This document shows, piece after piece, positions 11,558-62,693 of a DNA stretch of 64,000 nucleotides. Each line of letters opens with the position of its first letter. The stretch's first letter is position 1. The DNA comes from Pempheris klunzingeri (lineage: Eukaryota > Chordata > Actinopteri > Acropomatiformes > Pempheridae), in NCBI RefSeq assembly GCF_042242105.1, contig NC_092027.1, positions 4,803,006 to 4,867,005 on the forward strand. The letters run 5' to 3'. Made by a program: the position numbers and the translations under genes. Below the pieces are notes generated by a model that saw only the letters and a list, made by a program, of their open reading frames with translations, was not told the DNA's origin and did no database searches.

Positions 11558-12935
11558 GCCTGCAGGTCGTGCTGCTTGCCGGAGGATGTTTGTTGTTCTT
11601 GTTGTCATAATCCCATCACACACTGTGCTGGTTGGCATGTTGGGGACTTCAAACTCCCTGTTATTTTAACTGGAGTTTCCAGCAGGTGCCATGATGGACT
11701 GAACTTTCTGGTAGTGCTCATTCCCAGCGGGCTGTGGTGTAACATCTTCCCAGTCTGCAGCAACAGATGTTACTGTGAGTGTAGATGAAATATGGCACCA
11801 GATACCAGGAGGCAGATGCTTGCATGCATCCATGAGATCCAACAAAAACACTGCAGATAGACACTGAATTTAGGCAACGACATACCTTTATTTCAGACAG
11901 GAATTAAAGCTTTCCTTTGTTTGAGAAATGTTCATGACTTTCTTTTCAAAATATAAAAATACTTCAGCTGGCAAACACACAGAAAGCAGAAAACATTTTA
12001 AGGCAAACGTGTGCAGGCAGCAGGAAGCTCAGGCAGTTCAGTGCAGGTATGAAAAGGTGATTCACGTCTTTCACCTCCCAACAAAAATCTGGCAGCAACC
12101 AGGAGCACAGATACACAGAACTTCTGTACAAGAAAAGCCCACAAACTCGATCACTGCTGGAATGTTACTGAAGCTCATAGCGGTCGAACACTGAAGCTTA
12201 CACAACAGGCACATCATGAACAGGGACAGGACTGAGACACTTCTTTTCTTTCTGCAGAGGGCTCTCTGTTAATACTGCGCCATGCTGCAGTCCCTGAGAA
12301 AACACGGATCAGTCATGCAGCGATGTTACTAATACAGTGCTCGGCTTGTTCACAGGCCTCCAACAATACTGGCTGTTTATTCTTGGATCACCAACTACAT
12401 GCTTTTTTATTTCACCAGGACACTTCTAACACGTATTAAAGTTAAATCCCTTTTTTATGTTTTAGCCTGATTGATAAGGATTTCTGGGGTGTATACTCAT
12501 ATTGAAATCTCAGAGATGTAAAAAGTTTGATAACGATATGGAAACAAACATTTCTGATAAGCGCATCATCTGCTCAAATTTGCTTTTCAATGATTTTGAC
12601 AGTTTAAAAAAAAGAACAAAGGCACCAGTGCACTTCATCAGAGCTGCCTGTGAGAGGTTTAAAGAGCTCCTTCTGACGTCAGATCGTGAGGTGCTGCTGT
12701 GGCCGACATTTTCTGTTACTTTCCGAAAAGATTTGACATTTAAACCCACTTCAGGCTGTGCAGAAGTGGGAAAGGAAGTTGGGTTGAATTTCTCAGCTCT
12801 CTTCTTTCATTCTTTACCACAACAGTTTCTGTCACCTTTAAATGACTGACTACATTGACGTGCTGTGAATTACGAAGTTATCCCCGTATTTAAACATCAA
12901 ATCTTCTCTATCCTCTCTATGCTAACGCTAACTAA

Positions 12936-20200: not shown

Positions 20201-23200
20201 CAGGATGGTGCCCATGTTCTCGGTGAAGGCCCGGATGGGCAGGAAGTAGCCGGCATCGAGGATGATGGGAGGCAGCAGGTAGAAGAAGAAGAGCTTTGAG
20301 TCGAGGACGGGCGCTGCCTCTCCGATGGCCTCGATGATGCCGCCCACCAGCAGACCGACGACGATCAGCAGGCAGCTCTCTGGGACCACGTTCGACACTC
20401 TGGGAATAATATGAAAACCTGCAGAGAGAAAAAGATTTCTACTCATCAAACTGTTCATGTTGAGGGAAGAAGATCCTGCATACTGTTCTCACTCAGCATC
20501 ACTACTCACAGATAATAAAACATTTAGACCTTTATCACATGTATTTTAAACAATTCTCACAACAATGACCCTTAATAGCTCTACCCATTCTCTCTCTCTC
20601 TCTCTTTTTAATACATTTTGTTACTCATTGTTTTTATCTTATTTACTTCCCTTTGAGACTTGTGACATTGGGCTTTAATAATCTTTGATGTCATGTGCAG
20701 ACAGTAATGTGTCAGACTGAACCCACGTAATGGTTAATTATTGGGAGGCACTCAAACAGCAGAATAACAGTTTTTTTTTGAGAGACTCATTTTGTTGTAT
20801 GTGATTATGCAATGACAATAAAGGGATTCATTCATACACACATTCGTTCATTCATAACCGTCACACACCACAATGCAACAGAATGGGTGAAGCCTTATCT
20901 AGATCTGAAATCACTGTAAGAATAACAAAGGTCCACGGGGACCGACGTGTTCATATTCAGTGTGTGGGATCTTCTTTCCTACACGACTGTATCGGAGATA
21001 GTTGCATGTACAAAAATCTTGAGAATAAAAAGGAACATTTTGGACTTGAAGATTTAAAAAATCATTCACTTTTACTCCTTCTCACAACCTTAAAAATAAA
21101 ACCTTCTAAAATCCCATTTATTTTAAGTTAAAATGTTCTCAAATTTGATTAATATTCTGTTTTCTGAAGCATTTTGTAATGTTATTCAGAACAGAGGAGC
21201 CTTAGTCTAATGTTTGATTCCAGCCAGCGACCTTTGCTGCATGTCATTCCCCTCTTTCTCCTCCAGGCATTAAAAAACTGTCAGGTAAATACAACAGGAC
21301 CAAACATCCAGGTGAAAAACGACACTGCATCTAAAGGATAATTACTTTGTAATGAGTTTACATTTGGTGCATTAGAGCAGCAGTTTGACAGGACATAAAC
21401 AACGATCCACTCAGTCATTTGTACGCTGCAACATCCTCATGAAATATAAAACACGTTGCAGCAGCTGCTGCAGGACAGCAAGCAGTTTGTGGGAACTGAA
21501 GTCTGTCTGAAAATATCTGTGCGGTTTGAATTTTATCTATTTAATCTGCAGTGTAGTGGATGTTAGTGACATGAAAAACTGAGGCCTGCAACCACTATTC
21601 ATTATCCTTCTTTCTAGATCAACAGAAAATAGTGAAAAATGACCATCACAAGTCCCCAGAGCTCAAAGTAACATCTTCATGTTTAAACATCAGTCCAGAA
21701 CAGAGAAAAGCAGCAAATCATCACATTTGAAAACAAGAAACCAATGAATGTTTGATATTTCTTTTACAAAAACACATGTTTTCTGGCTTTTATCAATTTT
21801 TTTTTTTCTTTCTTCCTGATGTTGAACTGAATTTTTACCTCTTTGGTAACAATCAGAAATCACTCTTTACTTCATTGAGACAACAAAAACTACTAACAAA
21901 GTAAAATGATTGATTGTTTCAGTGCTGTCTATTAGCACCCAGGACAGCTAGATGGCTGCTATTTGGCCATTTACACCCGGCCGGGGACTTGTAATATAAA
22001 CAGAGACAAAGTTCACAAGAGGAAGAGGGAGTGATGAAGAAACAGGACTCTTATTCACTGAAACCAAATGTTTTCATTTTTCTCAGTTTTCAGTTGCAGT
22101 CGGTTCGGTTAAGGCACCAAAACTAATTGCTTAGGTTTAGGAAAAGATCAGCCACATTAGGGAATTACATCCCAGGTACAAATAGCATCTGCCTTAATTT
22201 AAAGTCATGTTTGTGTTGTAAGCCCAATATTCACTCTCCTTTTAGCTCTGCTTTTGGCCTCCACCAACTCCTGAAGGAAATATCTGGCTGTGCAGCAGCT
22301 AAATGCTCCACTATGTTTCCTACCTGGTCTCTGACTGTGTCAGTCTGCTGTTTGATGCTGAGCAGGTTGTATTATGTGGGGCTTTTAAAGCATCTTTGCT
22401 GAAAACAGCTGCAACCAAAAGCGACAATATAAGAGCAGTGATGTGAAGTAAAACAGCTAAACAATGAGCTGACAGTCAGTGTAACGCACTGTAGAGCCAC
22501 AACACTGTTACTGCTCTTTTAGTCTCATTTCTGGCCTGTTTGTATCTCAGCAGAACGAGGTCTTGACATTCAGCCTCACTCCGTCATGTGACGTGGGGTC
22601 CAGGCTGCTGTGACAATCGTTTTCTGCCATGTTTTATGCCGTCAGTGGTCTTGTGTGCGGCCGTCCTCGCCCCCTCCTCTCCTCTCTGACTCTGCACACT
22701 GGGATCTTTGTTATCGAGCAGTGCATTAGGACAGGAAGTAGGACCAGCCCTCGGAGACAACAGCTGGACCAGCAGATAAGATGCCAGAGAGTTTCGTTCA
22801 GCTCACTGAGCCAACTACAAACCGCAAGCCAGATTCCTACAGCCAATCAGAATCACCGCTGCCCAGAGTTCTGATCCAAAATGGTGGATAATACATTAAG
22901 AAAAAGTCTAAATCCATCATTATTTACACGTAAACTGTCCTGCAGAAGACACAAACCTCACTGTCACATGCTCTGTAATATTGCATGTTTCTGAAAATAT
23001 CTAAAAATAGTTTGAGTTTATTTGTACAGTGACTGTTCAAAGAGTTTTATGGGCTTCTACTTTAAGACTAAATGTCTTAGAAACTGATTGTTTATTTGCA
23101 AAAAAATAAAACAATTAAAATAAAATAGATTTTAGTAGTACTTAGTACTGAGAGCCCAGACGAAATACCAAAATTTGAACCGAAATGTTGGCCAATATTC

Positions 23201-34100: not shown

Positions 34101-37100
34101 GGTCCCATATTGTGCAAAATGCACTTTTTAATATTTTTTTTCAGCATAAATATTTGTCCCTGGTGGACCTAGAGACCAAAAAACTATGAAATAAACACCA
34201 TCCTCTCTCATTTTCTCCTGCTCCACCTTTCAGTAAGTGCGTGTGAAAATGTGCCAGTAGATTATGTTCAAATTTAAGAAAATAATCAACAACATTCATT
34301 CCTCTCTTCAATGATTTGCACCTTTGTGTGAAAAATTAAAAAGGACAAACTCATCGATACATCTTTGGCTACAGAGGCCACACTGATGAGACCAGATTTA
34401 AGGTGATCCTTCATATGACAAGTGTAAATGGAGCATTTGATGGTTTGTTTCATGATAATAAATAACATAAATCAAATCAGTTGGCCAGTTAATCTGTTGA
34501 TGAGGTTTAGCTGGACTGACCACACACAGTCCACTGTGGAAAGAATGAGCTTGTTGTGTCCCAGGCCGCTGTAGAACTTGTCAGCGCCTTTCCTCAGAAA
34601 GTGGACCGTCATCTCAACTCCCTCTGATCCAAACAGGTCCTGTGGTGCAACATAACAGGACATAACAGGTCAAATATAAACATTTAGAAATTTAATGTCA
34701 GTATTTAAAGTTGAAGGCAGATGAAATAATAGCACTTGATAAATTAAAAACAATACTTTTTTCCACCTGTAGCACTAATGCAAACATCTTATATTTATTA
34801 ATCTACTGATCAACAGGATAGTGAGTGCTTTCATCACAGTCTTTACTTTTCTGTGCATGTCGCTCTGACACAGTGCTGAAAGTATCAGCTGAATATCTGT
34901 CTTTATCTCCAGGGTAATGACATCCTCCTCATCAGGACTTGCTTCCATCTGCATCAAAATACCTGAGAAAATACCGCAGGTATGTCTGTGAGTAATTAAA
35001 ATGTCTCAGCTGATATTATGCACTTTGTGATGAGTCAGTAAAGTTTTTATTTGATTTACCCAAAAGCTGGTTGATGGTTCCTTGATCACAAAGGTCCTGA
35101 TTGACTGAGTCTTCACCTGAAGACGTCACAGATCTCAGCACCCTGATACAAAGCCGCATCTGAGCCTTCTTACTGCCTCCTCCTCCTGTGCCATGGAAGC
35201 TGTGACCCTGACCAAAGTAAGCATCTAGGAGAAAAGAGGAAAGATAATAATAACAATAATCTTGAAAAAAAAATCTACAATACCCAAATTCTGACATTTT
35301 TGAAAACTAGAAAAGGATAAATCAGCTGTTGACACGTTAACTGGTCACATTAGTTGTTTGTTTTCTGAGAACCTGTTTGTTTGTGCTTCCGTAGAGTGAG
35401 AGAGCTAAGATTCATTGCTAAAGGGCACTCTGGGGAGACACCTGGCTGTTGGTGTTTGACCTTTGACCTTTCAGATAACGAACAATCGCTCTTTAGTCTC
35501 TTGTTTGTCTCTCACCATGTTTTACCATACCCTCACCTTCCCTGACGCACCAGTCCAGCAGCAGCAGCATACATGTATTTCCCTGACAGGACATGTACTG
35601 ATCCGGCATGAGTGGAGCGATAGTGGCCAGGGTGGCCAGAGCCTGCAGCTGGAGCTCCTCCTGCTGGACGGAGGACCAGTGACGTGAAGCTGAGCGGTGC
35701 TCAGACAAATCAGCAGGTGGCTTCACGAGCGTCAGCAAAGCCAGAGTCACTCTTTCTTCTTTATAAAGCTAAGAGAGGAAAAACATGCGAGGAAAATAGT
35801 TACAGTAGTAATATATATATATATATATATATATGTTACAGAAATACGAAGTGAGTGTGTGACTGACCTGCAGGGCAGCTAAGTCCTTTGACATCAAAAC
35901 CAACAGATTCAACAGCAACTTCTTCATTTTAAAGTCTTCGTTACTGAACTTGAGCTTGAGGTTGCGGACCAAAGTGTTGTGACTTTTCACTAAAACATAA
36001 ATTAAGCCATTTTGTTATCATAAAAGGTGCTACTGTACTCAGAAATAATTCAAATGTAAAAACAAACAAAGAGTGGCCTCACGCTCTGGAAATGTGGCGA
36101 GAACAACAAGATGTCTGGCAAATAAACTCTCCTACAAATTAGAAACACGTCAACTAGAAACATGTCAAACAAGCTGGAGTGGCACATTTTACACAGCTTC
36201 TCAATATACTGAACAGTTATGCGACTAATAATATCAGCAGTGCAGTGTGCTCTAATGATCCCGTACTCACAATGAGCAGAGAGTTGGGATTTTCAGCCAG
36301 GAGCGTTGTGATAACCAGCAGATCATTTCTGAGTTGGAGGTCAGAACGTTGGACACTGCTCATCAGCTGGTGAGTAAAGGCTTCTTTCAGAGATCTAAGA
36401 TACAAATGACCAAAAGGAAAATATCTAAGATATAATATGATATAAGAGAGCACGAAAAGTATTCAAACTCGAAACGTTTTTTAGAGGATGGAAGGCAAAA
36501 TTCATAACTCACAAACCTTCCTATATAGCATGCAGTTAATATATCAGAGATACTGGTTCATTTTACATTTTAGAACTCTATAAGTGAATAAAAAGCTTTT
36601 TCACAGAAATGAACTATAAAAGGTTGCTGTCCTCATCAGCCACATACTGTATGGAAACATCTTAACCCCACAGGAGACACGTACAGGACACACTCCATGC
36701 TGTTGAGCTGAGCAGTGACCTCCTCATTGCTGCCTCTCTCCAGCAGGTTCCAGAGGATTTCGGAGGAGCGGAACAGGATCTGGCCGGACGGGTCAGGTTC
36801 GTTCATGTGGAGACAGATCGTCTCTGCTCCTCGTGCATTCAGCATTAAAGCACAGTTCGTGTCTGTGGTTAAATGAAAGTGAAATAAAGGTTAAAGAGAT
36901 GTGATTAATGATAAAACAACCCATTGACCTGCTGACTTTGACACAAGGACACTTAAAATCACTGTTTTGATTGTTCATCTGATTATTGTTTGGTAATGAG
37001 ATGATTTATGGTCTTGAGAGCCGGCTACTTTATCTAATGAAGGAGGATTGGATTGACATGTCTGACAGATCCCCTCCTCCACCTATCTCAGTAGATCCTA

Positions 37101-44300: not shown

Positions 44301-47300
44301 TTTGCCACCGTTGTTCAAAGACAGTCCAGCCAGCCCTTTCCTTAGTGCCTACTACCCCGACTGTGTGGGGATGAGCCCATCGGGCTCTCCCAGCAACATG
44401 TCTCTGTCTGAGCTGAGGGCAGATCACTGCAGAGCCGTCCCTCCACAAAGTAAGTCTGTGAGTGCGAGAGGAAGGGAATATTTCAACAGCCGTTGTTTAC
44501 TGTGTTATGATATACAGATAATTACTCGACATACAGAGAGGTGTGGGACTAAATGGGAGTGATGCACCAGGGAGACCTCCCATTTAGAGATCTCAGTCTA
44601 AAGTAGATGATGATGTGGACTAATACAGATTGTATCCCTCAGTTGCAGGCCTGTGTCCATACTTCCAGCCCTTCTATCAGCCTAATGAGTGTGGCAAGGC
44701 TCTGTGTGTGCGGCCGGATATGATGGAGCTGGATGAGTTGTATGAGTTTCCAGAATTTTCCCGTGATCCCACCATGTATTTGGCTTTACGAAACCTTATT
44801 CTGGCTTCCTGGCACAAGAATTGTAAGGTAGACTGCAGATATCCTCCAACTGTGACTTACAAGCATTGCATGTTTTTACCTTTTAGGCTCTGGACTTGAA
44901 ACATAGATTGCTGATTTATGTACCGTTCAATACACCTTCTTCTCTTGGATTAAAGAACATTTAAGACTCTAGGAAACGACAAACAGACAAAGCAATTAAC
45001 AACTTTTTCTGTTTTTCTAAAGGAGGTGCTGACTTCCCAGAAATGTGCTCTGCACATCATCGTCCGGGGGTTGGTGCGTGTGCGCTGCGTGCAGGAGATG
45101 GACCGGGTGCTCCACTTCATGACCAGGAAGGGCCTCATCAACACTGGTGTGCTGGCAGTGAAACGGCCCCTGCTCCCTGAAAGATACTGCTCTGTGAGTG
45201 TCCTGATCTTCACCTGATCGCGATACAACCGCACACATCTCATGTAAACGTTTATTTTTATCATTTATGTGGTTAATGCGCACATTATCTCCCACGTTTG
45301 GTCATTTTTGCAGAGGAATGTGATCATCATCGGTGCCGGGGCTTCAGGTCTGGCTGCGGCACGGCAGCTGCAAAACTTTGGCACTCAGGTAACTGTCCTC
45401 GGCTCAACTTATTTCCTGTCACACATAGATTTTACCCTGTTTGGTGATCACAGCCCTGTCCCTTTACGCTCTTTATTTTCATTGGTTCACAGGCGGTGGT
45501 GCTTGAGGCAAGGGAGAGAATTGGCGGTCGAGTGTGGGATGATACTTCTCTGGGCGTCGCTGTAGGGCACGGAGCTCAGATTGTCAATGGCTGCGTAAAC
45601 AACCCCATCGCCCTGATGTGTGAGCAGGTAAGAAAGTCTGAAAGGAAAGAATTCTTTATATTTGTGCTGGACATTAAACCTGATCTCAAGTTTATGTTTT
45701 TCTCTCTAAATGGAAACATGCACTGTCTTGTTGCATCTTTGTATGTGACTCAAGGGTTTGCTCGTAGCCCGATGTGACTCTTCTCTCTCCTGTTGCAGAT
45801 GGGGATCAAGATGCACAAGCTGGGAGAGCGGTGTGACCTCTTCCAGGAGGGAGGGCAGGTTACTGACAAGGCCATCGACAAGCGCATGGACTTCCATTTC
45901 AACGCCATCCTGGACGTGGTGTCAGAGTGGAGGAAGGACAAGTCGCAGAGCCAGGACACACCGCTGAGAGGTGCTGAACTGTCAACCCCAAACACAGCAT
46001 GGCTGCTTTAATGTAAAGTGAGAGCCACTAACAAATGGAAACAAGAGCATTGATCGCTTTCATCATCAGACTAGAGTAGTGTTTTTGTGTTCACTTTTCA
46101 ATTCTTTCTTTTTTCATATTCATAACAAAAATTCCACATCAGTGGAAATTATTTTTAACAGTTGAAGTTGGTCAAGAACATCTCCATTGCTTAAGAAAAC
46201 TTTTTTTTTTTCTTGCATGACCTTTGCCGTCTTCTTCAGCGACGATGGCAGCCGTTCTCATGTTTGGCCTGACCTGCTAATTATTACTAATGGCAGGTTA
46301 CAACTGTGAATATGTTCAGTGCAGGATTGTAAAAGTAAAAGAGTAGTTCTGAGAAAAGGTCGGCTACGGAGTAAAACATTTTCCTAGATAAAAAAACACA
46401 TATAAACAGAATTTAGTTTGGTGGTTTGTGTTTAGAGATATTTGCCCTCTTGAGTTGTGCATTTGATCTGTGCAGAAAAAGTCCAGGAGGTGAAGAAGAA
46501 CTTTCTTCAGGAGTCTGGAATCCAGTTCAGTGACTTGGAGGAGAAAGTGCTCCAGTTTCATCTCAGTAACCTGGAGTACGCCTGTGGAAGCACATTAGAC
46601 CAGGTCTGAAAAACTCAAACCGAACGGCTGCAAGATTTTTCTGTTGTGTTTGTGTCCATTTTGAAAAGTTTGTGTGGGTTTTGATATTGAGCCTTTAAGG
46701 GAATTCTGTTGAAAATGTTGTTAAGTGTGTTTGTTTTTTATGTTTTTTGTAGGTATCAGCGAGATCCTGGGACCACAATGAGTTTTTTGCCCAGTTCTCA
46801 GGCGACCACACTTTACTCACTAAGGGCTTCTCTGTGTTACTCCACAAACTAGGCGAGGGCCTCGACATCCGAACAAAGTGCCCGGTTTGTAACTCAATCT
46901 TTTAATTTCACTTGCTACGTTCACCTTTCATTACACAATGTTGTATACCACAGAGATGAATCCCATTGTTAAAAATTAGCTGCACATTTTGTTTTTTTAT
47001 TCCAGGTTCAGGCCATCGATTACTCAGGTGATGTTGTCAAAGTTACCTCCTCTAATGGGTCGCAGTGGACGGCACAGAAGGTAAAAATATGTTAATAAAT
47101 GTTACACAGAGCATATAATATGTCTTTTATCATTTTAAGGCTTTATCCTAGATTATGTATCATGTTAGAGAATGCTGGATGTAATCAGTGTGGATTTTCA
47201 TGGTGTAAAGTTATTCGACTTCTCTCTCTGTTAGGTTCTTGTTACAGTCCCATTGACTTTACTTCAGAAGAACTTGATTCAGTTCAACCCTCCACTTCCT

Positions 47301-49647
47301 GAAAGAAAACTGAAAGCAATCCACAGCCTGGGAGCTGGTATCATAGAAAAGGTAATAAGGATAAAGATAAGGGTGTTTTATTGTCATTCCATGACATGTT
47401 GTACATGGCGGGGAACAAAGTGAGGCACTCAGGTCCTCATTCAGGTCACAGCAATAATAAAATCAGGAGGGGGCACACAATAAGACACCATTACAAATAT
47501 CAATAAGTAATCATGTAACCGTAGATATCAAGTGAACAGAATGTGATGATGAAAATAAAACTAGCCTTCTGGCCTTGGTGGTTCTGGTGGAGTCCCTCGT
47601 GATGAAGGAAGCCTTTTTCCTGCTCCTACTGTTGTAAACATTACTGATGGTGGTGGTAGGCTGCTGCCAGTGATCCTCTGTGCAGACATTACCACCTACT
47701 GCAGAGCCTCAACTCAGCTGCGTAAAAGATGAGCTCAGTTCTAGAAGCGTCAGATTTCAGGGTTCGTGCGGTGACTGTGTTGAAGGTGGAACTGAAATGA
47801 GGGCCAGCCGAAGCACAGATGAGATCGTTTCTGCAACTGGGTAATGTGAAGTGTAAATTAGTGCAGGCCTCCAGATACAAGTGTATCTAAGTGCTGATTT
47901 CTCTGCTCTATCAGATACAGATTCTCCATTTACTCAGAGTATTTAATTTAAATACACAGTGAATAGAGAGACAATATTTGCAATTTTTCTTCCTTGTAGA
48001 TGCTAAAATATTATTTCAAAACTTCTTGCAGATTGCTCTTCAGTTCCCGTACCGATTCTGGGACAGCAGGATCCAAGGGGCAGACTACTTCGGCCACATA
48101 CCGCCAAGCCCTGACAAGAGAGGCATGTTCAGTGTCTTCTATGACATGGATCCACAGGTTTGTTTCTTCTCGTTTCTGTTCACACGCCAAGACAATATCT
48201 TACCGATATATTACTTACAATATCTTATCTTATAATACTGAATAACACAAGTGTGCTGTTGTACTCACGTACAAATACACACAAACTCACACACAGATGC
48301 AAATACACAAACACACACACACTAAATAAATACACAACATGCTCTCTTGTCACAAACGCCACTTAAGATGCATATTTTCCAGCTACAAGACGGATCCTAT
48401 TTATGTTTTGATAAATAAGAGGACGTTTGAATGCTGTCAGCAGCAACAAGAATACAGAAAATACAGAATATAAAAGTCAGAGGAGGAACATTTGTTAAAC
48501 TTACACACTTTGTGTGTGTGTGTAGGGGAAGCAGGCTGTCCTCATGTCTGTTATCACTGGGGATGCTGTACCTGCTGTCCGGGACCTGGAGGACAAGGAG
48601 GTGGTGGATGAGTGCATGAAGGTCCTGCGTGAACTTTTCAAAGAACAGGTGACGCTTTCATGGTTTAATCCTCAACCCTGTCGCATCCTGATGAAACCCA
48701 AGTTACCCTTTGGACTGACACGTGTTTGAGTGAGAGAGTTTTGTGTATGTGTGTGTTTTTCATCACTGTCTGTCATCGCTGACAGGAAGTCCCAGAGCCG
48801 CTGAATTTCTTTGTCACACATTGGAGCAAAGACATGTGGTCCCAGATGTCCTACAGCTTTGTGAAGACGGGAGGAAGCGGAGAGGCCTACGACATCCTCG
48901 CTGAAGACGTGCAGGGAAAAGTGTTCTTTGCTGGAGAGGTAACACTTGGCGAACCAACCAGTTTTATTTATTTATCATTTATCTTTTAAATTCATTTTCC
49001 ACAAAAACATGCAGGAATTGTATTATTTTCACTGCACCACAGATTTGTTTTCCTGAAAAAGGCCTCCTGGATCCATTTAATACAGAACGTATCAACCTGC
49101 CGTAGGCTGAGTGTGAATGTTATGTCGTGATTAATGAATAAAATAACATATTAATTAAATAACCTTAACTCAAGGCCAACTTACAGTACTGGCTGTCTCC
49201 TGAGCTTTCAACCACACACTAAGGATGAGATCCTAATAAAAAAACAGAAACCTATTAAGTAGACCTTGGGTTAAGATTACATTTAATGATTATTTCTTTA
49301 TATTAGGCAAGACATGGCAAATTTATTTGTATATCACCTTTCAGACACAAGGCAATTCAAAGTGTTCAACAGGGACATAAAACACAATAAAAACAAACAC
49401 AGAAACATTAAATTGCAGGTAAAAGATAATAAAATAAAGCTTAATATTAGTTGGTCATAGCAGATTTATGAAGTCAGATATTTGGTTTCCTGTGTAACTG
49501 TCACATTGCAGGCTTTTAAAAGAGATTTTTCATCGATTTATTGTTCTTGGTTTTCGTTCCCAGGCCACCAACAGACATTTCCCTCAAACTGTGACAGGAG
49601 CCTACCTGAGTGGGGTCAGAGAGGCCAGTAAGATGTCTGCCATGTAA
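41362..49647 (+). CDS. kdm1b: Lysine-specific histone demethylase 1B (LSD2/AOF1)
   Basis: Twenty-one exons give 834 aa (human 822). Exons are 41362-41377, 41669-41811, 43273-43394, 43488-43577, 43723-43834, 43942-44055, 44133-44171, 44257-44449, 44643-44827, 45023-45193, 45314-45388, 45493-45627, 45799-45970, 46476-46603, 46753-46884, 47006-47080, 47235-47351, 48032-48157, 48526-48648, 48786-48938 and 49564-49647. Order: zinc finger ([15 protein letters not shown]...), CW finger ([12 protein letters not shown]), SWIRM domain (from about residue 213), FAD-binding [13 protein letters not shown] (about 400) and amine oxidase core. The core includes the FAD-contacting Lys at 673 (GAGIIEK) and [13 protein letters not shown]. 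It is a nuclear enzyme that removes H3K4me1/2 with FAD, important for oocyte imprinting in mammals. The tiny first exon (MLSDA) is the least certain part. Confidence 0.95.
41880..42000. repeat. Dispersed repeat fragment in kdm1b intron 2
   Basis: GTTTAGTTTATTTGAAAGGG followed by GACAATACAGTCACAGACAA matches a common fish interspersed sequence. Boundaries are approximate. Confidence 0.4.
42830..42965. repeat. Dispersed repeat fragment in kdm1b intron 2
   Basis: AAGTCAAATTGTATTTATAC followed by AGCCCAAAATAGCAAATAAC and GCCTCAGAAGGCTTTA is a recurrent fish repeat signature. No coding capacity is seen. Confidence 0.45.
47352..47890. repeat. Probable dispersed repeat in kdm1b intron 17
   Basis: The phrase GGTGTTTTATTGTCATTCCA, then a GTGAGGCACTC... 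stretch and GTGATCCTCTGTGCAGACAT, resembles fish retroelement-derived sequence. Identity and ends are unsure. Confidence 0.35.
49310..49440. repeat. Dispersed repeat fragment in kdm1b intron 20
   Basis: AATTTATTTGTATATCACCT then ACAAGGCAATTCAAAGTG is a diverged copy of a frequent fish repeat tail (TTTATATAGCACCTTTCA type). Confidence 0.45.
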
Positions 49648-51850
49648 ACTCTGTCGGTCCCAGAGCACTCAAAAACACCAGCATGGACACACGAGTGGCA
49701 CCGAAACAACTCAGACTGTGTTATCTGAATCGCTCCACTTGGAATGATATTTCACTGTTATTATGATGTGTCATATAGGGCTTTCCAGGGCCTGACTCTA
49801 CATATTTAACACACAAGAAGCTAAAAAATCCAGCTGGTTAATCATTTGTCAGCGACAAGATGCAAAAATGAAAGAATAGTGCGGCATGATTAACAGATAA
49901 TCCCTGTGCAGCTCTGTCTGGGTCCGCTGTGCTGGAAAGGAGGATGATGTTATCTTAAATTTGAGTTTAACGAGTGATGTTTGTAGCACTTCTGTGATGA
50001 AATGATCAGAAAATGTAAAATGTTTTGAAAGATGAGGTTGCAGGAAACACTGGTAAACTCTCAGTCATGTAATCATGAATCCACCTGAGTTACATTTAAT
50101 CTCTAAGGATCAAGTTTTAAGAGATTATGTTGTTGTAACGTAGTAATGAGAGTTACCTACCAATGTTTTATGCAGCTGTAATGAATTTGCATTGTCTTAT
50201 ATGTGATTCATGTGTTGGTATAAGTGGTGAGAAATGGATGAAAAAGTTAGATATACAGTAGGAGTACTTCTGTGATAGCACTTTTGATTTAAAATATTTG
50301 ATTTAAAAACAGTGACAAAATAATGAATATTTCACATGTCTGACGAGCTGAATTCTCCGTATGGCTGATTATGATCAGAAAAAACACCTCATTGTCCCCT
50401 TACTGTCTCAGGGATATGATCAAGACAACAACACCTAGCAGAAAATTATGAAGATGGTTGGGAAATACATTAACATAATATAATATAACCCAACCAAAGG
50501 AGGAGAAAAGGTCTATTTGTCCATATTGAAGTTCCTGAGGTTTGGGGTCGGGGAACAGCACAACAATGTCCTCACTTGTCGTCATTAATGTTGATTAATG
50601 AAGCTTTACATGTAGGTCCTCGTATCTTTGTCTGGATCCGTTCATCTAGGTGACCGTGTCCCGTTTGTCCAACATTTCAGTGCTGTGGTATTTATCTTGT
50701 ATGTGTAATAAACTGAGCTATCAACTGCCATACTGATCATATTCACCTGTGAATGAAAGATTGGCTCCTTTTTTCCCCTCCGTAACTCCAATCAGCATGA
50801 TATTTATCATAATATATTTATGCCAACATAGTCTGTAGACTTTTTGACACTCTACTACAATAATACTGTACTGACTGAATATGGAAGCAGGGCTGAAATA
50901 AGTACAGTAATTAGTTGAAATGTATCCAGAAACAATTTGGATTAATTATGAATATTGCAAAAAGGCAAAAAAAAAAAAAAGACAAATCAAATAAAATCAC
51001 TAGTTTCACCATGTCAAATGTGAATACAGACAAATTGTCTCTTTTAGTCTTCCATCATAGTAAATTGAACATTTTATAGTAATAAATTTAGTAGCTGTTC
51101 TGGGGCTTTTGATCGTGTCACCACAATCCTCCTTAGCAGATGGAGTTTACCTGAAATTGCATATATTTTATTGAATTTCTCCTTTACGTCTATATTTCCA
51201 TAAAAGTTGAGTTTTAAAGCTTGTGAGTTTAGAAACAGCAGTTAACCAAACAATCCACACTCACGGTCCATGTAGCATCCCCCTTGATGTTGTGATACAG
51301 TCGAAAGCTCCGGATCAACTACTAAATGGCCCTGTTAGGTGAGAGTGTTTAGTAAATAGCTTGAGACAAGAATGAACTTTAAAACTTTGGGGCAAAACCG
51401 TGAAATGCCCTGATATTTCACTCTGAGTTTAGTTAAACTGAGCTTAGTTTATCTTATCTTAGCTTGTTTTTATCTTAGTTTATCTTCAGTTCAGTTGCTA
51501 GGATATTTGCCGTAGTTTGGTTGCTAGGCAATTCCAGGGGTCCAGTGACGTCGAGCAGGCGTCATCAACCCTCGCCTCTGCGCCCCCCAGAAACGAAACT
51601 GAAGAACCAAACCAAACGTAAGATGGGGCCGTATTACTGTCATGACTGGACAAACTGATTTGTAAACTTGTCAGCGGATGTAGCTGTAGGTTGGCGGACC
51701 ACGAGCTTAGTAGCTGGTGGCGACAACCAGCTGAAATTAAAGCGCGAACTTAGCTAGGCTAGCTAACAGTAAGTGAAAAAGAAGAACAACGTTAGACCAA
51801 GTTGTCGCGGTTTGGATGAAGAGCTTAATTAACTTGTACTGAGCAACATA
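49648..51850. other. kdm1b 3' UTR and intergenic region
   Basis: No coding exon is seen. The kdm1b 3' UTR probably runs to about 50.7 kb. A short repeat remnant starting GGGCTGAAATAAGTACAG is near 50890. The promoter of the next gene lies before 51851, in a moderately GC-rich stretch. Confidence 0.55.
50707..50712 (+). terminator. Poly(A) signal for kdm1b
   Basis: AATAAA about 1.06 kb after the kdm1b stop. It is followed within about 40 nt by a GT-rich stretch (CACCTGTGAATG). Confidence 0.5.
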
Positions 51851-54800
51851 ATGGACTTCAGCACAGCTGACGTGCCCGCTAATGTGGTACACGACTCTCC
51901 AGGTAGTTACATTAACGATGCTATTTAAGTTTGAGCTGAGGAGGCAGACATTTTATTGGACTGCGTTGTTGCTAAAAGCTAAGTTAGCTTAACGTTACCA
52001 CTTGTAAATAATGCCTTTGCATCACTGCTGCTGTCTTTTTCAGACAGTTAAGAGGAGAGAGTTCACAGATCAAATTCAAGAATAATTTAAGGTGGATACG
52101 AGTTTTTAGGAGTTTGTTAGCACTGCAGCAACATGAGCTGTAGAAACACAAATACTGGTAATAGTGTTGCCTGTAATAACAGTGGTGGTACTGTACTGTA
52201 ACTACTCACCAGTGGTACTTTTTGACTTGATGCTACTTTATACCAACAACATTTCAGAAGGAAAAAGTTTACTTTTTACTACACCACATTCACCTGACGG
52301 GTAGTTACTTATGGCTTTGCACATGAACATTTTACACACAAAACACCTTATAGATTACCTCAGTATACAAAAGCAGTTAAAGTTAGCTGCACCAGCTGTA
52401 ACATAACAATGCTGCTCCATTGTTAGTGCATCAGTAGTAATATAATAACAACTCTCTGAAAGGTGCCAATTTACATAATGAACACTACTGTTATACTGCT
52501 GTATCCCCACTTTTATGCCAATAAAGTATTTGAATACTTCTTCCACATCTGGCAATAAACAGTCCTAATGTTATAATTCACTGTTCTGCAAAAGCAGATG
52601 AAGTTTGGAGTTTTAAAGCTGCGCCCTTATACACTGAAAATAGATGAACTTTTATGGTCTTTAATGGTCTGTCAAAGGAGGTTAATGATTACTGGAGAAC
52701 AATAGTCACATCTCTAGTTGCCCAATAATAATATATTGATACTGTGTATAAGCAAGATATCTGGTTTGACTCTGGCTGGGAACCTTCTTAGTTATAATCA
52801 GTATAGCCATCCTACTTTCTCTTCAGCCCCATTTCCCTATGAAACTGTACTCTCAAATAAATAAATGCCATGAAAACATAATGATCTTATTAACAATAAT
52901 CTTTATTCACAAATATTCACAACATACACAAATCTGCGTTGGCCTTTAAAGAGGACTGGTTTTTAAGTAAACCCTTTCAATGACTGCATTCCTTTGGAGG
53001 GATTTGACATAATTAATTACTTATAATAATAATATAATTAAACAAACTTTGATCAGTCAAACACATCCTGAAGATACCTTCCATACCTGACCTAGACAGT
53101 GCCTCGGATGGCTGTGATCACATTCAGCAGATAGAAACTTGTCAACTTTCAACTATCCACTGGACAAACTTTTCCACCGTTTGTCATCAAAAAATGGTGA
53201 AACAGGACAAATACGTCAATGGATGTTGCAGTCACCATGGGACAATACTACATCCTGCAACACCTCGACTCCTGAGAAACATGAGGAAGCTGTTTGTGGA
53301 CTTCAGCTTGGCATTCAACGCACTAATCACAGAAGTCCTCCGGTACACGCTCACCCAGCTCACTGTGCTAGCCTCCACCTGTCTGTGGATCACAAACTGG
53401 AAGACCAGAGGCAGCAGCTGAGTTTAGGGAGCATCACAAACTGTGGAGATGACGTTGGACTTCAGGAGGCCCCCAACACCGCCTCCCTCCTCCCCCAATG
53501 TGCTTAACAGCACACATCCAGGATCCACAATCACCCAGGACCTAAAGTGGATGCTCAACATGGACTCCATCATCAGAAATGCCCAGCAGAGGATGTATTT
53601 ACTGTGCCAGCTCAAGAAGCTCAACCTTCCTCAGGGGGTGCTCTGTTCTCTGCACTTCCCTCACTGTCTGGTTTGGATTGGAACTGTTAGGACTGAAGAG
53701 AATATCATCAGTGCCAACCTGCCCTACATCCAGGAGTTGTACATTTCCAAAGTCAGGAAACGGGCTGGAAACATCAATCTGCTGACCCATCACACCCTGG
53801 ACACAGCCTGTTCAAACTCCTGCCCTCTGGCAGAGCGCTGTACGCTAAAACAATCTGACAGAATGATTTTTATTGACAGGCCGTCACTCTTCACTTAAAC
53901 CTGTCATACAGTGTGAGAAACAAGTCTATATTTACAGTTGTATATAGCAGTTACATGTTTATGTTTTGTTGTCTTTGTTTCACTGTATGTCTCTTTCTGT
54001 GTAAGTATTTGGTGAATAAAGCTAATTTTGGTTCTGATACATGGTTTTCAGAGCACTATTTTGCACAATATCTGTACATTAGTGTAATGTGTTTGTGTTG
54101 TGGGCTCCAAATACTGGAAAATAAAATAAGAAGATTACCATATTCTGACTATTCAAAGAGTAGTTTGTTGGAAATGCATGTTGCAAATTTATTGAACTTT
54201 TAAGACCCTTTAACCAGACCAGACTTGAGGTGTATTTACTGGTGTTTATCCCATTGTGTCTGACTGATCAGGGAAGGACAGCTCCAGCTCTGATGACGTA
54301 CCTCTCTCAAAGCTCCTGACGAGGCCACGCAGTGAGGAGAAACGTGAACACACACACAGCTTAACCGTCAGCTCCGACACTAAATCAAAACAGGACAAAA
54401 GCGGTGAGGACAACAAACTACACAGGCAACTTGATGTTTTGTGACCCCTGAAAGTAAAAGCTAGTACATTTTCTGTTTATATCTCCCATTGTAGCTTTGG
54501 ATGACTCCTCAGATGATGAGCCTTTGATAAAGATTAAATCTGCACAAACTAAGAAACCAGTGAAAAAAGACAATGTTTCTCCCAGATCTAATGGCACAAA
54601 TAACAAGAAAGCAGGTGGTTACACTACCTTATATTATCATCTGTATTTCAGCTGCATTTTCTCATTTCTTTTTGTCTGGAATGGATTGCTTTAATTTGAT
54701 GTGTATGTAACTCTTTCAGATTTGAATGCAGATGATAGCTCTGATGACGAGCCTCTCATAAAAATTGCTAAAATGTCCTCCAAACCCTCAAAGAAGCCTT

Positions 54801-56266
54801 TGTCAGCGCCTCCAAAAAAATCTGATGGTATGAAGAAGAAAGGTAAGAATGTGGATTTGCACCATCATCAGAAAGTTGCTGTTCTCTGTAGCAGATACTC
54901 ATTTTTGACCTTCCTTTTCTTTACACAGAATCACTGGATAGCGATGATGATTCAGATGATGCACCTTTGAGCAAACTTGCAGGGAAACTTCACTCCAAAC
55001 GTCAGAGAAAAGCGCCTGCCGTGCTATCTAGAAAAACAACCCCAGTTATAAAATCCAAAAGGAACGCAGCGAGGAAAAAGGGTAGGTGTTAAAATGTGGG
55101 AATCAGCATATAAAATGCTTTTTCCATAGCACTTACAACAAAAATAAATATGTTTTTTTCGTTCTAGTTAAATATGCAGAGTCTTCCAGTGAGAGCTCAG
55201 ACCATGAAACCCTGGCAGCAATGAAGAAGAGGCTGACAAAGGCTCCTAAAGAGCAAAAGACTTCAGCAAACAGCAGGAAAACAAAAGCAAAGCGTAAAGA
55301 TAAATCACTAAAAGGTAGGCTGCACATTCATTAGACTGGCCACCAGGAATGAATTGAATTAAAGATTATGGCAAGTAGTTTAAGTACTAACCTTTTGTGT
55401 TTTAAAAGACCCTTCAACCTCAGACAGCAGCTCAGATGATGACGTGCCGTTGGTGAACCTCGTTGCTAAGAAAAAGAAACCAGTGAAGAAAAACACAAAG
55501 ACGACGAGTGAATCGAAAGGCAGAGCAAGAAAGAGACGAGGTACTTCAGAAGTGACGTGTACAAAACATCATATGATATATAATTATACATGATTGAAAT
55601 CCTTGCTGCTGCTGCTCGTTTGGCAGGAGACTCGCATGAAAGCTCCGACGATGAACCCTTGATTGATGTTGTGAAAAAGAAACGCACAGACAAGCAAATG
55701 GAAACCAAAACGATGGCTCCTGCTCTGGAGAAGAGGGACACAGCTGCCAAAAAGCCAAGAAAGACGCTTGTGTCAGGTAAAGGCTCCGGCCCCATCAGCC
55801 TCAGCTGGAGGTGACAGAATGAAAATGTTATCGTAACGTCAGAAGTGTGACCAGTAGACTTGTGGTTCTAGAGGCCAGATAATGTGAAGCAAAAATTCAA
55901 GAAGTTATGGTATTGTCAAGAATTATTCCCTGTTTAAAATCAGTCATTCATTTATGGTCCATTCTTGTTTTTCCAGGGTCCTCAAGCAACAGTTCAGACG
56001 ATGAACCCTTAATCAAGGCAGCCAAACACCCACAAGTGACCAAAATCTTGAGAATAATACTAGAGAGGTGTGATTGTGAAGAAGCCGGGGCAACAAGAAG
56101 CCTGGAAAAAACTAGTACAGGTACTGACTGCATAACTAAAAGTCTTTACTGATGCTGCAGCAGAACCTCAAAATGAAGAGTAACATTATTCTCTGTCTTC
56201 ACAGACACACCGACTGCTGAAAAGACCTCAAGTGAGGAGTTAGAGGACTCACCGGAAGAAGAATAA
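51851..56266 (+). CDS. Unrecognised acidic/basic repeat protein (SSDDEPL-repeat), 404 aa
   Basis: Ten exons (51851-51902, 54272-54403, 54495-54614, 54720-54842, 54929-55081, 55168-55314, 55409-55540, 55627-55776, 55977-56120, 56205-56266) give 1215 nt and 404 aa. Every intron is phase 1, so all eight internal exons are symmetric. Each internal exon codes an acidic unit, then a Lys/Arg-rich linker. The units are SSSSDDVPLSKLL, DDSSDDEPLIKI twice, DDDSDDAPLSKL, SSSESSDHETL, DSSSDDDVPLVNL, ESSDDEPLIDV and NSSDDEPLIKA. The first exon is MDFSTADVPANVVHDSP and the tail is acidic (ELEDSPEEE). The Ser-Asp clusters look like CK2 sites and the linkers like nuclear/nucleolar signals, a layout like treacle or NOLC1 but with a different motif. 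A nuclear role is inference. Confidence 0.8.
52150..52560 (+). repeat. Dispersed teleost repeat in intron 1
   Basis: It has GATGCTACTTTATACCAACA, AAGTTTACTTTTTACTACAC and the ending TATTTGAATACTTCTTCCAC. It is the same family as the copies at 1190-1590 and 17900-18480. Confidence 0.6.
53095..54040 (+). pseudogene. Degenerate 5'-truncated non-LTR (LINE) retrotransposon
   Basis: Frames on the plus strand show RT-like LFVDFSLAFNALI and then a C-terminal pol-like region: STITQDLKWMLNMDSIIRNA, QQRMYLLCQLKKLNLPQG, ENIISANLPYIQELYISKV and RKRAGNI. The pieces are in different frames with stops, and the YxDD region is lost. The 3' end (GGTGAATAAAGCTAATTTTG) has the usual LINE tail look. It sits in sense orientation in intron 1 of the SSDDEPL-repeat gene. 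Confidence 0.75.
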
Positions 56267-56801
56267 GCAGATGAAACAAATCTGTAATGTTTATAATTAT
56301 CTTTCACCTTCTGGACCGGGAAGTTCAAACCACCTAGAAGCTCCAAGTTTGAAGGACTTCCTACAAGTGATGTAAATCCCCTCGGAGAGACAACTCCCAA
56401 ACAACACAGTTAGAGTTTATGTGAACAGTGCGTTTTATATGCGATACATACATGTTAATTTAAGGTGTTAATATTTTTACTTCTGTTTTTAAGTTTGGGA
56501 TCAGATTTTGTAGGTTCCTGAAAGATTTTATGCAGTCCTTGATGTTATTTGACTATTTGTGCCTGTTGTTTGCATTGGCTGTTTTCTCTGGTTTTATTTT
56601 TTAAGAGACTAATTTAACTCTCAATGAAGTTACATTTCTGTTTTCATATTAACTGCACACATAGCATGCACCAGTGAAAATACACTGTGTTTCATTAAAC
56701 TGCTTTCAGTATAAAACTCATGAATCAGATGAATCAGTCTCTGTTTCCCACAGTTGCTTTTCTTTATTAAAGTCTGTCATTTTCGTTCCAGTCACATTGT
56801 A

Positions 56802-56807
56802 AATAAA
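56802..56807 (+). terminator. Poly(A) signal for the SSDDEPL-repeat gene
   Basis: AATAAA about 535 nt after the stop codon. Weaker variants (CATTAAAC, near 56693) occur earlier. Confidence 0.45.
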
Positions 56808-57099
56808 TTCAAGTTGAATCAATTATATTCATACTACCATATAAATATAATTTATCCATGAACTGGTATACAATTTATGGTATTTTTATAAAACCATCTG
56901 ACTCACTCTACTTTGGGCCCATTCGGGGTGTCAGCAGGGCCCAAATCTGGCTTTTAACTTGACACTTTATCCAATTATGATTTTAGTGTAGTGTGTAGAG
57001 TGTAGAACTAACACTTATAGTCATTATTAACCAGTTATATAATATTTCTATTCGATTTAAGCATTAAAAATACACATATGTTCAATTTACAATCATGTT

Positions 57100-57260
57100 T
57101 TGGGCTGCAACTAATGTTTTTCATTATTATAAATCTAAATAACGAATTAACCATTTGGTCTAAAAAATGTGCAAATATTAAAATACCCCTGTCACAATTT
57201 ACATTTAAGCTCAGTGTGACATTCAAACTGCAAAAAAAAACCGGATTTATTAATTACAGC
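57100..57260 (+). repeat. Dispersed repeat fragment (GGGCTGCAACTAATG type)
   Basis: It begins GGGCTGCAACTAATG, has AACCATTTGGTCTAAAAAAT inside and ends near AGCTGTTTCAGTTCTAAAT. It is a diverged member of the family at 12936-13165. Confidence 0.55.
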
Positions 57261-57689
57261 TGTTTCAGTTCTAAATTATACAAAAGTGAGAGGCAGATTC
57301 TTTCTTTTGCAAAGAACAATTAAATGAGTTATTTGAGCACTAAAACCCAATTTTCCTAAAACAATTAAAAGCGTGAGCAGGATTAGATCATTGGAGAAAA
57401 TAGCACCTTAAAATAAATGCAAACATTCATGTGATATAAACATGACACCGAAAAGGGAAGTGAGCATTAGACATGTTTGTAGTTTTCTTAAATTACATGA
57501 AGTTTGGTGTGCACTCTTCTTCACTGCTCTCTGAAGACATCTGCTACTTCCGCCATGACCCGGCCACATCCCAGCTAACTTCAGTCCTCCACACACTCCT
57601 CTTCACAAACACTACAACTCCACAAGTTGTTCCACCATAACACTGGTGCTCTGAGCCTTACAGTACTTTTATTTTTGCAATCCAAACAA

Positions 57690-58010
57690 AAGCATCCACC
57701 CAAAGTCTAAAAACATCTTTCTTTATCTTGGTTGGCATGTATCCAATGACAGCAATGAGGACAAGAGCAACAACAACCGCTGCAGCAGTGATGAGGTTGG
57801 TCATGCAAACGGGCCTCTCGAGTAGAAAAGAGCAAAAACTGTACAGATTAAACAGGTAAGAAAAGAATAACATCCAATTCCCAACCAGACACAATCCTGC
57901 ATGCAGATACTGTTAGTTTATCCTGCTGTTGCTGTTCATTTAAATATGAATCCCTATTTATCTGTAGATAATAACTGTCTATGCTTGTTTATCCTTGTCT
58001 AGCTTTATTG
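57690..58010 (-). pseudogene. Relic of an MHC class I transmembrane exon and adjoining intron
   Basis: The minus strand reads ERPVCMTNLITAAAVVVALV followed by LIAVIGYM, alignable with the intact transmembrane exon at 63052-63156 (EKPLDKTTIIIIIVAVAVLV...). The upstream intron also matches: CCAATTCCCAACCAGACACA here against CCATTTCCCAACCAGACCCA at 63225-63244, and both have a GATAATAACTG/GTAATAACTG phrase further on. The acceptor AG is one base out of phase with the intact exon and the donor is lost, so the copy looks dead. No alpha domains are seen nearby. Confidence 0.7.
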
Positions 58011-58142
58011 TAAATACAATGTCTATACATTCAATCATCATTCAACTATCTTTATACTAATTTATTCACATTCTCTCTCCCCCTCTTCTCCCTCTTGCAC
58101 TTTATTCTTTATCAGCTGACTATGGGTGCTCACTCTCACTTA

Positions 58143-59699
58143 CACTGTGTGCACAATTATTAGGCAAGTGATTATTTTGACCATATCATCATTTTATCCA
58201 TAATTTCCAACTCCAAGCTGTATAAACTTGAATGCTTATTGGATTTAATGCATATCAGGTGATGTGTATTTGTGTAACGAGGGAGGGTGTGGCCTAAGGA
58301 GATCAACACCCTATATCAAGGTGTGCATAATTATTAGGCAGATTCTTCTCCTCAGGAAAAATGGGCCAAAAAAGAGATTTAACTGACTCTGAAAAGTCAA
58401 ATATTGTAAAAAGTCTTTCAGAGGGATGCAGCACTCTTGAAATATCTAAGATATTGGGGCGTGATCACAGAACCATCAAACGTTTTGTTGCAAATAGTCA
58501 GCAAGGTCGCAAGAAACGTGTCGAGAAGAAAAGACGCAAATTAACCACCAAAGATTTGAGAAGAATCAAACATGAAGCTACCAGGAACCCATTATCCTCC
58601 AGTGCTGCCATATTCCACAACTCCAACCTACCTGGAGTGTCAAGAAGTACGAGGTGTTCAGTTCTCAGAGACATGGCCAAGATAAGAAAGGCTGAAACCA
58701 GACCACCTCTGAACAAGACACATAAGTTGAAACGTCAAGAATGGGCCAAGAAATATCTGAAGACAGATTTTTCAAAGGTTTTGTGGACTGATGAGATGAG
58801 AGTGACTCTTGACGGACCAGATGGATGGGCCCGTGGTTGGACCAGTAACGGACACAGAGCTCCACTTTGACTCAGACGCCAGCAAGGTGGAGGTGGGGTA
58901 CTGGTATGGGCAGGTATTATTAAAGATGAGCTAGTTGGACCTTTTCGGGTTGAAAATGGACTCAAAATCAACTCTCAGACCTACTGCCAATTTCTAGAAG
59001 ACACTTTCTTCAAGCAGTGGTACAGGAAAAAGTCTGCATCTTTCAAGAAGACTTTGATTTTTATGCAAGACAACGCTCCATCACACGCATCAAAGTACTC
59101 CACTGCGTGGCTAGCCAGTAAAGGCCTTAAAGATGAAAAACTAATGACATGGCCCCCTTCTTCACCTGACTTAAACCCTATTGAGAACTTTTGGGCCCTT
59201 CTTAAGCAGGAAATTTACAGTGAAGGTAACCAGTACACCTCTCTGAACAGTGTCTGGGAGGCTGTGGTTGCGGCTGCACAAAAAGTTGATTCTGACCAGA
59301 TCAAGAAACTGACTGACTCCGTGAATGGAAGGCTTGTTATTGAAAAGAAGGGTGGCTATATTGGTCACTGAGGGTTTTTTTTTTTTAAATTTCAGAAATG
59401 TTTATTTGTAAATTTTGAGTTTGTTTATTATTCTCACTTTAACAGGTGAAAATAAACAAGTGAGATGGGAAAATCTTTGTTTTTCATTTAGTTGCATAAT
59501 AATTCTGCACACTAATAGTTGCCTAATAATGGTGTACGTATAGATATTCTCTTAAGAAAGCCAAAACTTCACTTTTACTACTTAAATGTTCAGGTTTGAG
59601 GGTTTGTTAACATTTTGGATTGACCAAGAGCACTGTAGTTGTACAATAACAAAATGTATCCTCAAAAATACAACTTGCCTAATAATTGTGCACGCAGTG
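58143..59699 (+). mobile_element. Tc1/mariner-type DD37E transposon, nearly complete
   Basis: The element is 1557 bp and flanked by TA at 58141-58142 and 59700-59701. Its ends are inverted repeats: CACTGTGTGCACAATTATTA at the left and the complement (TAATAATTGTGCACGCAGTG) at the right, about 27 bp with one mismatch. Inner copies of the same motif lie at about 58321-58340 (GTGTGCATAATTATTAGGCA) and, inverted, at about 59497-59540, giving an IR/DR-like end structure. It carries one transposase frame (58361-59371). It inserted near the MHC class I relic. Confidence 0.95.
58361..59371 (+). pseudogene. Tc1/mariner transposase with one in-frame stop
   Basis: The frame from ATG 58361 to stop 59371 spans 337 codons. 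It is interrupted only by TGA at 58868-58870 (after HRAPL). The N-terminus has a helix-turn-helix region (LSEGCSTLEISKILGRDHRT) and a basic stretch. Catalytic signatures are VLWTDEMR, FMQDNAPSH and SPDLNPIENFW, with 37 residues between the second Asp and the Glu (DD37E). A single nonsense change and no frameshift point to a fairly young copy. It cannot make full-length transposase as read. Confidence 0.93.
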
Positions 59700-61234: not shown

Positions 61235-61429
61235 GAAAAGCACAAATTACAGTAAAATGAATGAAATAATAATAATAATTTGGAATTGATCCACTCAATC
61301 CAGCACAAGAAGTGATTTTAAGCATCGCTGTTCACTTTCTAAGAGAAAAGAAAATGTTCCTTGTCCATAAAGAGTAGCAGGAAAGTGCACTACTTAAAAA
61401 AAAGGGACTGACAACCCTTTCAAATCCAA

Positions 61430-61656
<227 letters not shown>

Positions 61657-62693
61657 CATGATTCAAAACAAGCAAACTATTTACACATTTTATTTACATA
61701 AGAAATTGTGTGTTTACAGATCACCCTGGGAGAAAATGGGAATGTGTGAACGTGTGTGTGAATATATGTATTTAGATTTCTTTTAGATCAAAAAACATAT
61801 TTAACTTATCATACAATTATTTATGCATTCATAATGTGATTATTTCATTGTTTTGAATGTCCTGTTTTACTTCTCTCCAGGTAAGAAAAAAATATAAATG
61901 ATGCTCATTTGGTTTACAAACTTAGACTTTTTTCTTTATTTGATCCCCCATAGGGGGAAATTCTCAAGTATTTAAGTAAACATTTTATCAGAGCAAATTC
62001 CACTTTTTTATTTGGAACTAAATGATCAAAATAATTTAATGTCACCATTTATGTCATTTTTCAACAAACAAACTAATATAAGATTCCCAACACTGATTCA
62101 GTGTATGATAGGAATGAAGAATAACCAATGAATTCCCAGTTTACGGAGCAGAATGTGGTGCCACCGCTCCTCCCTTCAGTGCACAACTTAGTCACAAACC
62201 TAAAAGCAAAAAGAAAAATACTGAAAATAGAAAACAAATTAATTTTCCATAAACATTTGGAGGGTTCAAAGTTAAGTTAAAGAATCATTTAGACTGTGAA
62301 TGAATATCAATCAAATATCATTAAAGTGTCAACTTTGTAAAATATAGATTGACCCACTATGCATATGAAATACAACATATAATATATAATAAATTGCTTT
62401 TTTTCTGAGGCCTAATATTTGAGTTTTTAATTATACTTAATATTTATACTATTATGCTTCTACTCTACTGATCCCTCTCTCTTAATAATCTCACTTCAGC
62501 TCATATAAAACAGATTTAACTTTGTTGTGGAAAATCAATGAAAGTCAAACATTTTCTTTACAGTGTGTCAGAAGTTTCACAGCAGATTAAGTTCTTTTGC
62601 ACATAGTTGATGGTGTTTGTTCCACAGCAGCTGTGAAGTCTATGTCCCACATGAAGAAACTTACTGTGTGCAGGGTGGTGTTTTTGTCATCAT

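Follow-up and report, generated by a model that had tools for sequence, protein, structure and literature searches.

A ten-exon gene beside kdm1b in Pempheris klunzingeri, possibly a multivalent array derived from the phospho-motif of DEK

What kind of protein is encoded by a gene that repeats one short Ser/Asp-rich unit exon after exon, and from where might such a unit have come? The question is raised by a 64,000-nucleotide stretch of the fish Pempheris klunzingeri (contig NC_092027.1; hereafter the window), in which a gene model rebuilt from the raw sequence, with predicted splice sites, joins ten exons on the plus strand (51851–56266) into a single uninterrupted frame of 404 amino acids. 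An earlier note on this DNA described an acidic protein whose motif it was unable to match to a named family. The motif does match one, as its sequence, its near-exclusivity in the host genome, the phase of the intron before it and, less clearly, its neighbourhood point to the C-terminal phospho-motif of DEK. The repeated exon may accordingly descend from the DEK exon bearing SDDEPLIK, and the gene would then be a DEK-derived multivalent array located beside kdm1b, a reading that is held here with moderate confidence.

The identity of the motif carries this reading. Human DEK, in a reference sequence that agrees letter for letter with PDB 9l1x_K, contains ESEDSSDDEPLIKKLKKPPTDEELKET where its C-terminal domain begins, with the phospho-motif SSDDEPLIKK at residues 306–315, and the units of exon 3 (54495–54614), exon 4 (54720–54842) and exon 9 (55977–56120) are identical to it over nine residues (SSDDEPLIK). 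When a profile of the eight units was compared with 177,635 distinct PDB sequences, two DEK sequences ranked on top (E 0.0074 and 0.0075), followed by an alphaRep protein (E 0.15), in a database whose poverty in disordered proteins limits the weight of the ranking. For that reason, a scan of the 646-Mb host genome is taken as the stronger test. The DDEPLIK pattern, in any codons, occurs there at 11 places, of which eight are dek-derived (one gene and seven segmental copies of its motif exon, all on contig C8) and three belong to the present gene, while the reversed pattern occurs at two. The scan covered one further pattern, DDEPL with WSN-AAR behind it (Lys preceded by Ser or one of a few other residues); it gave no match, against three for its reversed control.

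Within the window, the expression [SD][SD]D[DH]xPL finds seven matches in the gene and one elsewhere (minus strand, 45331), compared with a mean of zero in 20 triplet-block shuffles, and DDEPLIK is present three times against none in 100 shuffles. In the open-access literature searched, SSDDEPL is absent and DDEPLIK appears in a single paper, on human DEK. No study of DEK evolution was recognisable by title among the matches listed, and a search on kdm1b and dek synteny in teleosts gave no DEK title among the matches listed. As far as open-access papers go, the gene may be undescribed.

The likeness to DEK also extends beyond the motif in part of the array. In exon 8 (55627–55776; unit SSDDEPLID), the 14 residues after the motif can be matched to fish DEK with no gap (VVKKKRTDKQMETK / MIKKAPTDEQLKET), and anchored shuffling gives p 0.00035 against fish DEK and 0.0057 against human DEK. 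A weaker likeness follows the unit SSDDVPLSK of exon 2 (54272–54403), with p 0.009 and 0.003, respectively. These are the clearest two of the eight units, and the values come from 16 anchored tests whose register was picked after an earlier comparison with fish dek had been seen. Human DEK 309–375 searched against the whole window finds exon 8 (E 0.039) and exon 9 (E 0.19) as its two best matches. In a phmmer search of the PDB with exon 9, a designed protein came first (E 0.19) and two DEK sequences next (E 1.2), and the same search with all 404 residues returned nothing but two chains of ribosomal protein S6 (E 0.95 and 3.1). A putative resemblance of exon 9 to HIRIP3 was also considered.

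The position of introns provides a further point of comparison. The host genome contains one complete-looking dek gene, on the minus strand of C8 at about 1.633–1.640 Mb. According to predicted splice sites, a Lys-rich exon that closes in phase 1 precedes its motif exon, and the latter starts at this phase-1 intron, 2–3 residues before SDDDEPLIK (two adjacent AGs are possible). In the window, a phase-1 intron likewise stands 3–8 residues ahead of the motif in each unit. The only two sources of DDEPLIK found in this genome thus share a phase-1 intron at a short distance ahead of the motif.

The neighbourhood offers a further, less clear-cut comparison. Coding frames of kdm1b lie upstream on the same strand (44624–46011; E 1.4e-95 to KDM1B structures in the PDB), together with a frame at 47963–48235 that presumably belongs to kdm1b as well, and a 68-residue stretch of kdm1b occurs only once in the host genome. 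The human genes make up a single block at 6p22.3 in the order TPMT-KDM1B-DEK-RNF144B, where DEK directly adjoins KDM1B and the two stand tail to tail. Human DEK and KDM1B are also both named within a 13-gene deletion at 6p22.3 in a case report (PMC8310580). In Pempheris, the contig of the repeat gene also carries a tpmt-like gene, at 6.81 Mb and 2 Mb from kdm1b, while dek is on C8, not beside kdm1b, and the best RNF144B match is on C8 too, 4 Mb from dek. A second RNF144-like gene is found on C13. Such a split of the block over two chromosomes is what a duplication followed by reciprocal loss leaves, and if it arose in this way, the repeat gene would occupy the place of a second dek.

Taken together, the gene and DEK have in common the SSDDEPLIK core, with a phase-1 intron a short way ahead of it and basic residues behind it, and, less clearly, the kdm1b neighbourhood. 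They differ in that DEK carries one motif, a pseudo-SAP/SAP region and a folded DEK_C domain, whereas the repeat gene carries eight units, with neither domain detected. The Pfam search of the whole protein gave no family at E up to 10, and that of its first 61 residues gave none either. Human DEK 52–208, which covers the pseudo-SAP/SAP region, reached at best E 0.24 in a tblastn search of the whole window, and this match was outside the gene. None of the ten fish dek exons produced a domain match in the 48–60 kb interval, with a best E of 0.035 for exons 2–5 and 10, and a hidden SAP exon was seen neither in intron 1 nor in the rest of the window. DEK_C (PF08766) was not detected in exons 9 and 10 at E up to 10, a setting at which HMMER filters drop most matches above 0.1, while in human DEK it was recovered as a control with E 1.6e-19. 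The hydrophobic tail of exon 9, whose place in the gene might fit a retained DEK_C, was considered as a decayed form of that domain and found unsupported, with shuffle p values of 0.13–0.84 and local p values of 0.23 and 0.77. As both defining domains were sought without being found, the gene does not strictly belong to the DEK family.

These absences weigh against descent from DEK, and they are joined by several other results. When the unit tails were aligned to DEK locally with gaps, the best p among 16 was only 0.018. The motif exon of fish dek continues into DEK_C, ends in phase 0 according to predicted splice sites and is therefore phase 1-0, not itself 1-1, so that its downstream intron differs. 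Synteny is loose at the distances given above and with the additional RNF144-like gene on C13, and plain translocation would leave the same two-chromosome split. Moreover, kdm1b and the repeat gene are co-oriented, unlike human KDM1B and DEK, a difference that calls for a local inversion or else speaks against a second dek.

The alternative that draws on these results is convergence, in which a lineage-specific nuclear repeat gene would have hit on a DEK-like motif through a common partner or through CK2, with no common descent. It is consistent with a shared core of only about nine residues, with the lack of any folded domain common to both genes, with an exon 9 tail that fails to align with DEK_C and with the 1-0 phase of the fish dek motif exon; the loose synteny and the 3–8 residue spread in intron position slightly lower the odds of descent and slightly raise those of convergence. 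Against it stand the phase-1 intron that both DDEPLIK sources place close before the motif, the adjoining kdm1b and the likeness of exon 8 to DEK that reaches past the motif. On this evidence, convergence appears unlikely, though far from negligible, and descent from DEK, as far as sequence comparison can speak, is likely but unproven.

The anatomy of the gene is consistent with growth by exon copying. All nine introns have GT–AG borders and all are phase 1, and each of the eight internal exons is divisible by three, 120–153 bases long and symmetric (1-1). The ten-exon join with its phase-1 introns and in-frame internal exons, as described in the earlier note, was reproduced, and the frame-neutral, exon-per-repeat layout is borne out by the symmetry of the internal exons. 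Copying a single 1-1 exon yields the same phases automatically, and the eight identical phases are therefore not eight independent coincidences. Exon 1 (51851–51902) contains the start codon and a short leader, MDFSTADVPANVVHDSP, and ends in phase 1. Beyond the units already mentioned, exon 5 (54929–55081) carries DSDDAPLSK, exon 7 (55409–55540) carries SDDDVPLVN, and exon 6 (55168–55314) has a degenerate unit, SSDHETLAA, in which the PL part is lost. Exon 10 (56205–56266) encodes an acidic C-terminus and the stop codon.

One SSDDEPL-like unit with a Lys/Arg linker had been proposed for every internal exon, and this holds for most of them. The motif is clear in seven of eight, exon 6 being the exception, and a basic linker is present in seven units, its place in exon 9 being taken by the hydrophobic stretch VTKILRIILERC. 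The PL(I/S)K form proper is found in five units (PLIK in three, PLSK in two), and the others read PLVN, PLID and TLAA. The chain as a whole is basic, with 90 Lys and Arg against 70 Asp and Glu and a pI of 9.5, which contradicts the description of an acidic protein; the acidic clusters are embedded in a basic chain. The CK2-like nature of these clusters was confirmed, as [ST]xx[DE] sites number 26, where shuffles average 15.5 (p 0.001), and it is likely that the element is a repeated short motif, as had been suggested. Six basic runs resembling nuclear localisation signals occur in the protein.

Ser/acidic clusters that alternate with basic linkers are also the layout of treacle (TCOF1) and NOLC1 (Nopp140), to which the gene had been likened, and treacle has one exon per repeat. 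A nucleolar scaffold of this type, serving polymerase I or rRNA processing, would fit both the layout and the CK2-type clusters. However, the motif of treacle and NOLC1 is a different one, and their defining N-terminal LisH domain was absent from the Pfam results for the whole protein and for its first 61 residues, as was any other Pfam domain. The motif profile points to DEK, although a PDB poor in disordered proteins might have missed treacle. The comparison thus stands for the layout only, no evidence of kinship emerged in an analysis that did not compare the treacle and NOLC1 sequences themselves, and a treacle/NOLC1-type scaffold is improbable.

Divergence between the units bears on their age and upkeep. 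Over nine motif codons, synonymous (pS) and nonsynonymous (pN) divergence are 1.11 and 0.11 in the four best units (3, 4, 8 and 9), so that synonymous sites have reached saturation and the protein has hardly changed, and 0.93 and 0.27 in all eight; with few codons, non-independent pairs and units recognised through the motif itself, the comparison is a sign, not a test. The pattern suits old duplications in which the motif was retained by protein-level selection. In agreement with such an age, Tandem Repeats Finder reported no repeat in 50000–58500. The observed/expected CpG ratio is 0.80 at the 5′ end of the gene (51300–51900), compared with three other stretches at 0.33, 0.22 and 0.44, and a candidate polyadenylation signal, AATAAA, is located at 56802–56807 (plus strand), a consensus match only and one of eight A[AT]TAAA matches within 56261–57700. 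A locus that is decayed or unexpressed but retains its exons, to which the degenerate motif of exon 6 and the 2.4-kb first intron with its reverse-transcriptase-type remnant might be ascribed, is hardly credible in view of ten exons free of stops and frameshifts, uniformly GT–AG splice sites, a motif pS well above pN and a CpG-richer 5′ end.

If the repeated exon does descend from DEK, what is known of that protein suggests a role for the array. In lung cancer cells, the human peptide KESESEDSSDDEPLIKK was found phosphorylated at S301, S303, S306 and S307 (PMC5643318), and a review places a second DNA-binding activity of DEK, as well as multimerization that depends on CK2, within residues 270–350 (PMC12468270). 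In the DEK–nucleosome structure, residues 52–68 and the SAP domain provide the contacts with histones and DNA, while the C-terminal domain is invisible and ascribed an auxiliary role (PMC12263440). Neither the 52–68 nor the SAP region is seen in the window protein, yet it repeats the phospho-switch element, and a multivalent, CK2-tuned nuclear scaffold would therefore be expected.

Under descent from DEK, the gene probably sits where the second dek copy of the teleost duplication stood, beside kdm1b. It would have lost the pseudo-SAP/SAP region and the folded DEK_C while keeping the short motif, whose exon would then have multiplied through tandem copying inside phase-1 introns. For the product, a disordered protein of the nucleus is predicted, in which Ser/Asp clusters open to CK2 mostly precede PL and a basic linker. 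By analogy, it would work like the C-terminal phospho-region of DEK, multiplied, and as a scaffold might repeat in one chain what DEK 270–350 does once. Phosphorylation could move it from net basic toward net acidic, and its binding partners may include DEK's own partner of the motif element, DEK itself, or nucleic acid through the basic linkers. The fuller scenario, in which one dek remained intact after the teleost genome duplication while the copy beside kdm1b shed its folded domains to become an eightfold CK2 phospho-motif array, is put forward tentatively and lies slightly on the doubtful side. Such an array would amount to a natural separation-of-function form of DEK. It could link DEK multimers or compete with them, and its number of units could rise or fall as exons are duplicated or skipped.

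In the sources cited here, the DEK element around S301–S307 is described only through the broad region 270–350. If the proposed origin is true, amplification of the motif without SAP or DEK_C would suggest a self-sufficient module, and the gene would offer a natural construct for finding the partner of that motif. The gene would, in addition, clearly exemplify how a duplicate can be remade through exon amplification of a short motif.

The dek locus on C8 has a history of its own. Its motif exon and parts of its 3′ end are present in seven further copies between 1.62 and 2.20 Mb, with equal tblastn scores and identical 21-base motif DNA. They lie about 9–13.5 kb apart within three clusters, two of them on the other strand, and longer segments match at roughly 91–99%. 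The gene adjoining dek is presumably NLR-like, judging by its likeness to NACHT and leucine-rich repeats. It seems that the dek 3′ end was carried along in the amplification of the cluster, or that the assembly is at fault.

The remainder of the window holds other genes and mobile elements. Three neighbours are on the minus strand, mixed with the kdm1b block: genes that we take to be fatty-acid-binding-protein-like (11197–11665) and sodium/proton-exchanger-like (17428–20488), for one fragment each of which Pfam returned nothing, and CFAP69 (35493–36462), which is further upstream of kdm1b and recognised by two fragments (Pfam E 4.9e-27 and 8.7e-12). Within intron 1 of the repeat gene, 53428–53898 (plus strand) matches the Pfam family ALKBH8_N (PF09004, E 6.3e-9), a model that we take as a marker of the tails of long interspersed nuclear elements, so that the remnant there is presumably such an element. 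Just downstream of the gene, a reading frame broken by a stop (58331–59371, plus strand) presumably derives from a Tc1/mariner-like transposase. Finally, a long TA/TG-type simple repeat occupies 61378–61701, where several open frames read IYIYIY.

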